Assembly (NCBI GenBank): GCA_016195025.1
Contig: JACQAL010000021.1
Span: forward strand, 1-64,000
DNA length: 64,000 nucleotides
Source of the DNA: Bacteroidota bacterium
GTDB taxonomy: Bacteria > Bacteroidota > Bacteroidia > Palsa-948
Reading direction: 5' to 3'
The notes beneath the pieces are model-generated. The model searched no databases, was not told the origin of the DNA, and saw only the letters and a list, made by a program, of their open reading frames with translations. Positions 35,266-52,782 of this stretch are shown here, one piece after another. The translations under genes and the position numbers were made by a program. Within the stretch, counting starts at the first letter, position 1. Every line of letters begins with the position of its first letter.

Positions 35266-37191
35266 ATGAATTTATCCTACGACATAGTAGTTGTTGGTGC
35301 AGGCCACGCAGGTTGTGAAGCTGCGGCTTCCGCGGCTAATATGGGCTCTAAGGTTTTGCTCATCACAATGGACATGACCAAAATTGCCCAGATGAGCTGC
35401 AATCCCGCTATGGGAGGAATTGCCAAAGGGCAAATCGTTCGCGAGATAGATGCGCTTGGCGGTTATTCAGGAATTGTTTCTGACCGCTCTGCTATACAAT
35501 TCCGCATGCTGAACAGAAGCAAGGGTCCCGCGATGTGGAGCCCGCGTTCGCAAAATGACCGCGCGCTGTTCACCACCGAGTGGAGAAAAATGCTGGAGCA
35601 ATCTCCCAATGTGGATTTCTGGCAGGACATGGTGAAAGAAATAATTGTTTCGCCCCCACCCCAACCCCTCCCCCAAGGGGGAGGGACAAAGGGAGGGGGC
35701 GTTGTTACGGGCGTCATCACCGGAATGGGAATGAAAATTTCTGCGAAGGCAGTTATACTTACGAACGGAACTTTTCTAAACGGCATTATTCACATAGGAG
35801 AAAAACAATTCGGTGGCGGGCGTGTGGGAGAAAAATCTTCTACCGGAATCACCGAGCAGTTGGTTTCTCTCGGCTTTCAGTCCGGCAGAATGAAAACCGG
35901 AACTCCTCCGCGCGTGGATGGAAGAAGTTTGGATTATTCGAAGATGGAAGTGCAGAGCGGAGATGAGAATCCGAATAAATTTTCTTTCCTCCCGACTGTA
36001 GAAGGAGAAGAAACTATTTACGGGCGCAGAGAGCAAATGCCTTGTCACATCACCTACACAAACTCCGAAGTGCATGATATATTAAAGACGGGTTTCGACA
36101 AATCTCCTATGTATTCTGGAAGGATTCAGGGAATCGGCCCGCGCTATTGCCCGAGCATTGAGGATAAAGTAACACGCTTTGCAGAAAGAGAACGACATCA
36201 AATTTTTGTGGAACCCGAAGGATGGGACACGGTGGAGATTTATGTGAACGGGTTTTCCACTTCGCTTCCCGAAGATGTGCAGATGAAAGCGCTGAAAAAA
36301 ATTCCGGGCTTTGAGAATGTGAAAATGTTCCGTCCCGGCTATGCCATTGAGTACGATTACTTCCCTCCTACTCAATTACATTTAACACTCGAGACAAAAC
36401 AAATTCAGAATTTATATTTCGCAGGACAGATAAACGGAACCACCGGCTATGAAGAAGCCGCTTGCCAGGGATTGATGGCGGGAATAAACGCGCACCTGAA
36501 AATAAAAGAACGCGAACCGTTTGTTCTCACGCGCTCCGAAGCATACATCGGAGTTCTCATAGATGATTTAGTCACGAAAGGAACGGATGAACCCTACCGC
36601 ATGTTCACTTCCCGCGCGGAGTACAGAGTTTTGCTGAGACAGGATAACGCGGATGTTCGCCTCACGCCAAAATCTTTTGAGTTAGGATTAGCAAGCAAAG
36701 AGCGTTACGAACGCGTGAAAGAAAAAAACTTACAAGCGGAACAGATTATGAAGTTCTTCCGCGAAGAAAGTATTTCACCTGAAGAAATAAATCCTTTCCT
36801 CGAAAGTATCGGTTCCTCTCCCCTGTCGCAGAAAGTAAAAATGTTTGGTGTGCTATTGCGCCCCGGAGTTTCTGTGAATGATTTTATCCGCTGTAGTTCA
36901 GCGGTAAAAACATTTGCAGAAAATTTTTATCCGGAATGTTTGGAGCAGGCGGAAATATTAATGAAGTACGAAGGATATATTTCCAAAGAATACGAAATGG
37001 CGGAAAAACTTCAGCGCCTCGAAGAAATAAAACTCCACGATGATTTTGATTACCACCGCCTCACTTCCCTTTCCACCGAAGCACGGGAAAAACTTTCGCG
37101 TGTGCGCCCCAACACCATCGGGCAGGCGTCACGCATTTCGGGTGTTAGCCCTTCGGATGTTTCTATTCTGCTGGTTTATTTGGGGAGGTAA
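35266..37191 (+). CDS. mnmG: tRNA uridine-34 carboxymethylaminomethyl modification enzyme MnmG
   Basis: This 641-residue protein begins with the FAD-binding VVVGAGHAGCEAAASAANMG and keeps MSCNPAMGGIAKGQIVREID, GTFLNGIIHIGEKQFGGGR, RIQGIGPRYCPSIEDKVTRF, FAGQINGTTGYEEAACQGL and TSRAEYRVLLRQDNADVRLT. With MnmE it modifies the wobble uridine of several tRNAs. Unusually, between the strands MVKEIIV and VVTGVITGMGMKI there is a proline/glycine-rich stretch (SPPPQPLPQGGGTKGGG) encoded by a GC-rich palindromic element; it lies in a surface loop region and keeps the frame. The C-terminus (IGQASRISGVSPSDVSILLV) is intact. mnmG is often near the replication origin, consistent with the parS sites close downstream. 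Confidence 0.97.
   Translation: MNLSYDIVVVGAGHAGCEAAASAANMGSKVLLITMDMTKIAQMSCNPAMGGIAKGQIVREIDALGGYSGIVSDRSAIQFRMLNRSKGPAMWSPRSQNDRALFTTEWRKMLEQSPNVDFWQDMVKEIIVSPPPQPLPQGGGTKGGGVVTGVITGMGMKISAKAVILTNGTFLNGIIHIGEKQFGGGRVGEKSSTGITEQLVSLGFQSGRMKTGTPPRVDGRSLDYSKMEVQSGDENPNKFSFLPTVEGEETIYGRREQMPCHITYTNSEVHDILKTGFDKSPMYSGRIQGIGPRYCPSIEDKVTRFAERERHQIFVEPEGWDTVEIYVNGFSTSLPEDVQMKALKKIPGFENVKMFRPGYAIEYDYFPPTQLHLTLETKQIQNLYFAGQINGTTGYEEAACQGLMAGINAHLKIKEREPFVLTRSEAYIGVLIDDLVTKGTDEPYRMFTSRAEYRVLLRQDNADVRLTPKSFELGLASKERYERVKEKNLQAEQIMKFFREESISPEEINPFLESIGSSPLSQKVKMFGVLLRPGVSVNDFIRCSSAVKTFAENFYPECLEQAEILMKYEGYISKEYEMAEKLQRLEEIKLHDDFDYHRLTSLSTEAREKLSRVRPNTIGQASRISGVSPSDVSILLVYLGR
35651..35701. repeat. 51-bp GC-rich palindromic element inserted in frame in mnmG
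   Basis: Around a two-base centre it has perfect arms CCCTCCCCC and GGGGGAGGG, with outer GCCCCC / GGGGGC. Its length is a multiple of three and it encodes a Pro/Gly loop. Its C/G-rich composition contrasts sharply with the gene around it. It is of the same general kind as the two elements in hemH. Confidence 0.85.
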
Positions 37192-51726: not shown

Positions 51727-52782
51727 ATGAAAAAAGGAATTCTTTTGGTAAATCTCGGCTCTCCTGATTCTCCTTCGGTGAAGGATGTAAAAAAATATCT
51801 TACGCAGTTTTTGAATGACCCGTTTGTGATAGATATAAATCCTATTGCGAGATATATTTTAGTGAATTGGATTATTGTTCCTTCCCGCTCAAAGAATTCC
51901 GCAAAGCTGTATGAGCAAATCTGGACGAAGGAAGGTTCGCCATTGATTATTCATAGCAAAAGGCAGAAAGAACTTTTGCAAAAAGCCCTCACCCCTCACC
52001 CCTCTCCCAAAATAGAAGAGGGGAATGAGTACGTAGTAGAGATGGGAATGCGCTATCAAAATCCCAGCATCGAATCGGCTTTCAAAAAATTGGCGGAGCA
52101 GAAAGTGGAAAGTATTACCGCCATTCCGCTGTATCCGCACTGGGCTTCTTCTTCTACCGAATCAAGCATTATGGAAATAAAAAGAGTTGCGAAGAAATTT
52201 GGATTTCAGAATTTGAAAATAGTGGAGAAGTTTTATGATGATGAAAATTATTTGCAGTCATTAGTTTCTGTTGCCGAAAAATACCTCACCCCCAACCCCT
52301 CTCCTAAAACAGGAGAGGGGAGGTGGGATTTTTTTGTTTTCAGCTATCATGGCTTGCCGGAACGGCAAATAAAAAAAATCTATCCGAACCATTGCGAGAT
52401 AAATGATACATGCTGTTCCGCCATTTCAGAAAAAAATAAATTCTGTTACCGCGCGGCATGTTATTTCACAACGAGAGAATTGGTAAAGCGGTTAAATATT
52501 CCCGAAGGGAAATACATTACCTCTTTTCAATCGCGGCTGGACGATAAATGGCTGAAGCCCTACAGCGATAAAGTGATTGAAGAAAAGGCAAAAGAAGGAA
52601 TGAAAAAAATTTTGGTCTTCTCTCCTGCTTTTGTTTCCGATTGCCTGGAAACTATTTATGAAATAGGAATTGAATATGGGCACACCTTCAAACAAAATGG
52701 CGGAGAAAAATTACAGTTGGTGGAGTCGCTGAATGAAAATCCGAAATGGATTGAAGCGCTGAAAAAAATAATTACCGGCTGA
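51727..52782 (+). CDS. hemH: Ferrochelatase with two in-frame repeat-derived inserts
   Basis: This 351-residue protein inserts ferrous iron into protoporphyrin. Family motifs are GILLVNLGSPDSPSVKDVKK, ESITAIPLYPHWASSSTESS, the catalytic histidine in FFVFSYHGLPERQIKKIYP and the glutamate in SPAFVSDCLETIYEIGIEYG. Two short stretches do not belong to the family: LTPHPSPKIEEG after KALQ-type KELLQKA, and LTPNPSPKTGEG before RWDFFVFSYHG. Both are encoded by C/T-rich palindromic elements that keep the frame. The remaining enzyme looks intact. It overlaps the convergent spermidine-synthase-like gene by 11 bp. Confidence 0.95.
   Translation: MKKGILLVNLGSPDSPSVKDVKKYLTQFLNDPFVIDINPIARYILVNWIIVPSRSKNSAKLYEQIWTKEGSPLIIHSKRQKELLQKALTPHPSPKIEEGNEYVVEMGMRYQNPSIESAFKKLAEQKVESITAIPLYPHWASSSTESSIMEIKRVAKKFGFQNLKIVEKFYDDENYLQSLVSVAEKYLTPNPSPKTGEGRWDFFVFSYHGLPERQIKKIYPNHCEINDTCCSAISEKNKFCYRAACYFTTRELVKRLNIPEGKYITSFQSRLDDKWLKPYSDKVIEEKAKEGMKKILVFSPAFVSDCLETIYEIGIEYGHTFKQNGGEKLQLVESLNENPKWIEALKKIITG
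51988..52026. repeat. Palindromic element inserted in frame in hemH (copy 1)
   Basis: CCCCTCACCCCTCTCC is followed by a short spacer and GAAGAGGGG, giving an imperfect hairpin; it encodes TPHPSPKIEEG. It is the more decayed of the two hemH copies. Confidence 0.7.
52284..52327. repeat. Palindromic element inserted in frame in hemH (copy 2)
   Basis: CCCCTCTCCT and AGGAGAGGGG are perfect 10-bp arms around AAAAC; outer bases CCTCACC and GGTGGG also pair partly. It encodes LTPNPSPKTGEG. Confidence 0.85.

Follow-up and report, generated by a model that had tools for sequence, protein, structure and literature searches.

Two in-frame segments of a Bacteroidota ferrochelatase gene are copies of a dispersed REP-like palindromic element

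The two palindromic segments within the ferrochelatase gene hemH of the window (the whole stretch of 64,000 nucleotides analysed here) are very probably copies of a non-autonomous, REP-like mobile element that has spread with the loss of a few target bases. The element, a dispersed palindrome with the consensus CCTCACCCCCAACCCCTCTCCCAAAGGAGAGGGGAG, was found in all seven genomes (G000 to G006) of an uncultured Bacteroidota genus, with 31 to at least 146 copies in each. These environmental genomes measure 2.7-3.7 Mb, and the named public relatives are the MAGs palsa_971, FW215_bin.19, NC_groundwater_1592 and nzgw125. The window comes from G000, a Bacteroidota genome of 3.5 Mb in 79 contigs.

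The hemH gene (Table 1) is an intact open reading frame of 351 codons and is matched by the TIGR00109 ferrochelatase model at 255.8 bits (cutoff 124.6). Insert 1, CCTCACCCCTCACCCCTCTCCCAAAATAGAAGAGGGGAA, encodes LTPHPSPKIEEG (neighbouring bases included) and has 9-bp arms with one mismatch; the perfect 10-bp arms that the initial annotation had read in insert 2, CCTCACCCCCAACCCCTCTCCTAAAACAGGAGAGGGGAG (peptide LTPNPSPKTGEG), were confirmed. In the search of the window the two hemH copies were recovered by the covariance model with E-values of 3e-11 and 7e-7. The window contains three occurrences of the word CCCCTCTCC, where 0.16 would be expected in shuffled sequence, and CTCACCCCNNNCCCCTCTCC occurs twice free of mismatches against 0.03 expected even when up to three mismatches are allowed. 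Both places are unoccupied in orthologues within the genus; both segments are therefore insertions, and the original proposal of two in-frame palindromic insertions in hemH stands.

Table 1. Positions in the window of hemH, its two inserts and a related palindrome
Feature	Position	Strand	Basis
hemH, ferrochelatase, 351 aa, containing both inserts	51727..52782	+	ORF and TIGR00109
Insert 1, 39-nt palindromic element, 13 codons	51987..52025	+	covariance model, empty orthologues
Insert 2, 39-nt palindromic element, perfect 10-bp arms	52284..52322	+	covariance model, empty orthologues
Diverged relative of the element in mnmG (35266..37191), encoding about SPPPQPLPQGGGTKGGGV	35652..35702	+	covariance model

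The window hemH was modelled with AlphaFold from a 14-sequence alignment (mean pLDDT 89.5, pTM 0.88). In the model, insert 1 follows helix 72-88 and precedes strand 102-110, and insert 2 connects helix 173-187 to strand 202-207. The lowest-confidence ten-residue blocks (pLDDT 55 and 54) coincide with the inserts, which here resemble flexible loops borne by an intact fold. The inserts had been described as lying outside the catalytic motifs; this was borne out, both being located in loops.

The unit consists of an unpaired tag CCTCACCCC, NNN, an arm CCCCTCTCC, a loop, an arm GGAGAGGGG and a terminal AG (sometimes AA), with a stem of 9 bp. Units with a 4-nt loop measure 36 nt (12 codons) and those with a 7-nt loop 39 nt (13 codons), although the covariance model was built on 38-nt copies and the uniform length is partly built in. 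A logo of 80 copies extends over 36 positions with sharp ends and near-random sequence beyond them, and a purine precedes the unit in 79 of the 80. The covariance model found 57, 31, 143, 100, 146, 103 and 38 copies in G000 to G006 respectively; at most 150 candidates were scored per genome, so that the high counts are lower bounds. Some copies are longer, nested palindromes in which a further tag, inverted, stands at the far end and another small hairpin lies in between (L018, L026, L029, L030 and L032). Outside the genus, the exact pattern is present in 35 of 296 Bacteroidota genomes, representing 27 of 140 genera, against no match in the same 296 genomes for a reversed-pattern control. The majority of the copies read in other Bacteroidota genera (about 26) are intergenic or at gene ends. 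At one such locus (L220, in G166) the element lies near the 3' ends of two similar genes, probably a duplicated gene, and is followed in each by an identical RIDVSALPEGVYY. A literature search with the peptide LTPNPSP and its variants found no paper, and the DNA word returned unrelated papers only.

Comparison of filled and empty orthologues gives the clearest view of the insertions. At site 1 of hemH, G000 and G003 carry the element in one orientation and G004 in the other; the remaining genomes (G001, G002, G005 and G006) are empty there. At site 2, four different palindromes are found in G000, G002, G003 and G004, and the site is empty in G001, G005 and G006. The species of the genus have about 71-89% of residues in common over four proteins, and in a four-protein species tree G003 groups with G006, as does G004 with G001. 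The distribution of filled and empty sites on this tree indicates several gains, or gains together with losses, in the hemH loops. Homologues with both segments in place, which the initial annotation had set against an insertion, exist in so far as G003 and G004 are filled at both sites; their elements are of another kind or run the opposite way, and other species have none, suggesting recurrent use of the hemH loops and not an old native segment. At a third hemH site in G003 (L040) a different palindrome, TCCCGAAGGGACTCCTTCGGAG, lies in frame and encodes SRRDSFGAS; the family to which it belongs is missing from G001 and numbers 1-20 copies in each of the other six genomes.

Loops were likewise reused in an NAD-dependent sugar-nucleotide epimerase/dehydratase (apparently a UDP-glucuronate decarboxylase, UXS), in an amidohydrolase (two loops) and in riboflavin synthase. 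In the epimerase, the non-sister species G000 and G002 (L175/L178) agree in the element, its orientation, its boundaries and the native loss, and G001 and G005 are empty; such a match would result either from more than one insertion at exactly this site or from interspecies exchange. The insert in the G004 epimerase (L177), LIPSP-IPLSSGRGVRVEV-GLRS, is nested and resembles an element within an element. In the riboflavin synthase of G004 (L201), the loop that has a short element in G000 is occupied by a much longer insert, TSPLVPLSSDNRAKREGWERSSEVGSVPIGASGGEV, of about 36 residues.

At 12 clean sites compared with empty orthologues, the proteins had gained 5 to 10 codons (mean 8), that is, 15-30 nt, and the idea of an insertion adding exactly 36 nt was rejected on this basis. 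Because the unit itself has 12 or 13 codons, 2 to 7 native loop codons must have gone, and such loss was seen even in pairs with about 90% protein identity (L130/L228 and L137/L179). Both replacement at insertion and later trimming fit this loss. Net loss of target bases, and not the duplication looked for as a feature of MITEs, was found at the 12 sites, among relatives distant enough for later change.

Given the copy number, the sharp ends, the empty sites and the occurrence of both orientations, we infer that the element moves in trans or by copying, as far as sequence comparison can tell. A single-stranded or hairpin copy would be placed at many sites with a few target bases lost. Placement may be the work of a trans-acting enzyme, for which a RAYT-type Y1/HUH transposase is a possibility, or may come about through template switching aided by microhomology. 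Copies would be tolerated in surface turns, where the net length is divisible by three and no stop arises, and others would be purged, the encoded peptides most likely being carried along as passengers and serving as flexible loops.

A version of this explanation that names the agent is that a Y1 (IS200/IS605, RAYT-like) transposase spreads the copies by recognising CCTCACCCC, the unpaired tag on the 5' side of the hairpin, in the way that GTAG REPs are recognised by RAYTs. This is possible, if rather doubtful. The layout of tag plus hairpin and the doublets with inverted tags resemble REP and REPIN units. Y1 transposase genes were found in six of the seven genomes, and G001, the sole genome lacking them, has the fewest and weakest copies of the element and no member of the second palindrome family described below. 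The numbers of Y1 genes and of elements are related with a rho of 0.71 (rank correlation, p = 0.07), a weak correlation drawn from seven genomes that is a lead and no more. Against this agent, the palindromes beside the Y1 genes of the genus are different ones, and IS200/IS605 insertion is not known to take away target bases. A search for the mobilising enzyme within the genus found none, and a Y1 transposase was rejected as the direct partner, the palindromes that flank the Y1 genes differing from the element. At the Y1 loci L056, L061, L063, L065, L072, L073 and L074, the short flanking palindromes vary from gene to gene (CCGTTGGCTTCAGCCAACGG and CCACGACCTTTAGGTCGTGG among them), as would be expected for RAYTs with their own REPs.

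The coding context was classified for 100 copies, mostly the best-scoring ones and not a random draw, all from MAGs. The 150-nt flanks were scored with a dicodon model trained on the long ORFs of the genus, so that the classes reflect codon statistics and not annotation. Under a strict test (both flanks clearly coding, one frame, no stop inside), 57 of the 100 copies are in frame; a weaker test adds 17, one of which has an internal stop, to give 74, and a change of frame on the same strand was seen at three. Random positions in the window gave 60.5% strict, 8.9% weak and 3.0% with a frame change. Random positions on stretches of G001 gave lower coding values, perhaps reflecting a poorer fit of the codon model to that genome, and the window control was for this reason taken as the fairer one. 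Since the in-frame shares (57 and 74 of 100) are close to those of random positions (61% and 69%), the element neither shuns nor seeks genes and is placed like random positions. The earlier view that it survives in coding DNA therefore agrees with these counts; the companion claim that it favours coding DNA does not, its spread over genes and gaps equalling that of random positions. The second palindrome family, TCCCGAAGGGACTCCTTCGGA, also occurs once in the hemH of G003 and has a clear coding frame on both sides in one of the 12 loci read; sitting freely in genes is therefore not general to the palindromes of the genus.

Five of the six frames of the element are open (LTPNPSPxGEG, SPPTPLPxERG, PHPQPLSxRRGE, LPSPxGEGLGVR and PLSxGRGVGGEV). 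The sixth, which contains TGA, is used by none of the 57 strict copies (p = 3e-5). The open frames are used to differing extents (18, 18, 12, 5 and 4; p = 0.003 against equal use), a hint that the encoded peptide is under mild selection. This unevenness, the presence of about three quarters of the copies in genes and the filling of some sites in several species (L108/L126, L090/L123 and L088/L156) are what a preference for coding DNA, or retention there for a useful peptide, might produce, but such a preference is unlikely given the match to random positions, the copies of other Bacteroidota seen mostly outside genes or at gene ends, and the orthologous enzymes of sister species that do without the insert.

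A role of the hairpins as regulatory mRNA structures inside genes is more improbable still. Perfect GC-rich hairpins would fold in the mRNA, but the genes that carry copies are unrelated, the copies face either way and sit at differing depths of the ORF, and orthologues are without them; an Rfam search of the window matched no family. Least credible of all, that the segments are lineage-specific native ferrochelatase loops made palindromic-looking by base composition agrees with the naturally variable length of both helix-to-strand loops and with the residues that human ferrochelatase has at both positions, but is refuted by the recurrence of the hemH unit, from dozens of times to over 100 times in each genome, in unrelated genes beside empty orthologues, by the two orientations at hemH site 1 and by a chance expectation near zero, with the reversed-pattern control empty.

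The insertion of a dispersed element brings the Rickettsia palindromic elements (RPEs) and those of Wolbachia to mind, in which palindromic units likewise lie in frame in many conserved genes. With RPEs the element shares in-frame palindromic insertion in protein genes and absence from orthologues. An RPE in gmk leaves activity, according to a review (PMC2229807), and different RPE groups are found at or near one place in orthologues (PMC3767692), with hot spots likewise observed here. RPEs, of which the groups RPE-1 to RPE-7 are described, measure 105-146 bp (PMC2229807), an 84-nt RPE-4 is given (PMC3767692), and RPE-4 and RPE-6 have the tag CGTC (PMC3733652). With 36-39 nt and the tag CCTCACCCC, the element stands outside the RPE groups as far as their features are given in PMC3733652 and PMC2229807. 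The hosts differ as well, those of RPEs being obligate intracellular Alphaproteobacteria and that of the present element a member of the Bacteroidota with relatives among groundwater and other environmental MAGs.

Similar behaviour is shared with the GTAG/CGTC REPs, including the intragenic REPs of Opitutus terrae and Thauera, described by Di Nocera et al. (2013; PMC3733652). Common features are a hairpin of 20-40 bp, an unpaired end tag, high copy number, doublets and copies in ORFs. CGTC repeats are described there as having no dedicated transposase, and no partner was found for the present element either. Unlike those REPs, in which the tag directly precedes the stem, the element has CCTCACCCC-N3, and its occupancy of coding DNA is about that of random positions. 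GTAG directly 5' of the hairpin was not seen in the logo of the 80 copies, and the association of a GTAG REP with its RAYT has no counterpart here, the palindromes that flank the Y1 genes not being copies of the element. CGTC REPs carry CGTC, TGTC or CCTC directly before a stem of 8-9 bp that starts with A-T pairs, and a CCA-like tail; in the element, CCTC is present but eight unpaired bases from the stem, the stem starts with C and the tail is AG. The element thus acts like RPEs and intragenic REPs yet appears, on sequence features, to lack what defines them, and fits none of the described groups.

A near-identical layout, CCCTCACCC-TAA-CCCTCTCCCC followed by a G-rich arm, is found in an E. 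coli repeat with a median of 19 places per genome, the resemblance being one of layout only. The E. coli repeat is presumably BoxC. BoxC is listed in PMC2267715, and the Cod-2 repeats of the same paper are, by description only, among the closest known systems. The best five E. coli matches have no annotated feature beneath them, and one that was inspected lies between fimH and a pseudogene. The recurrence of the encoded motif in several bacterial groups, as put forward at the outset, accordingly holds at the DNA level within Bacteroidota (the 27 genera above), the E. coli relative being an intergenic repeat.

In-frame palindromes are mainly known from Rickettsia and have often been viewed as an oddity of intracellular life. 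The present genus is environmental, has dozens to more than 100 copies per genome that do not avoid genes, and offers empty and filled orthologues side by side, so that the movement of the unit, the tolerance of loops and a possible supply of raw material for proteins become testable. A palindrome with a length in whole codons and stop-free frames, for which genes are a neutral landing place and which replaces a few target bases, would rewrite surface loops across the proteins of the genus time and again, and might tentatively be regarded as a natural system for in-frame loop swapping.

The further copy proposed in mnmG was upheld in part: a related palindrome is present, and it has diverged from the hemH element (model match 35652-35687, E = 0.006). 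Opposite this copy, the MnmG of the solved structure 3cp8 has a gap of 14 residues.
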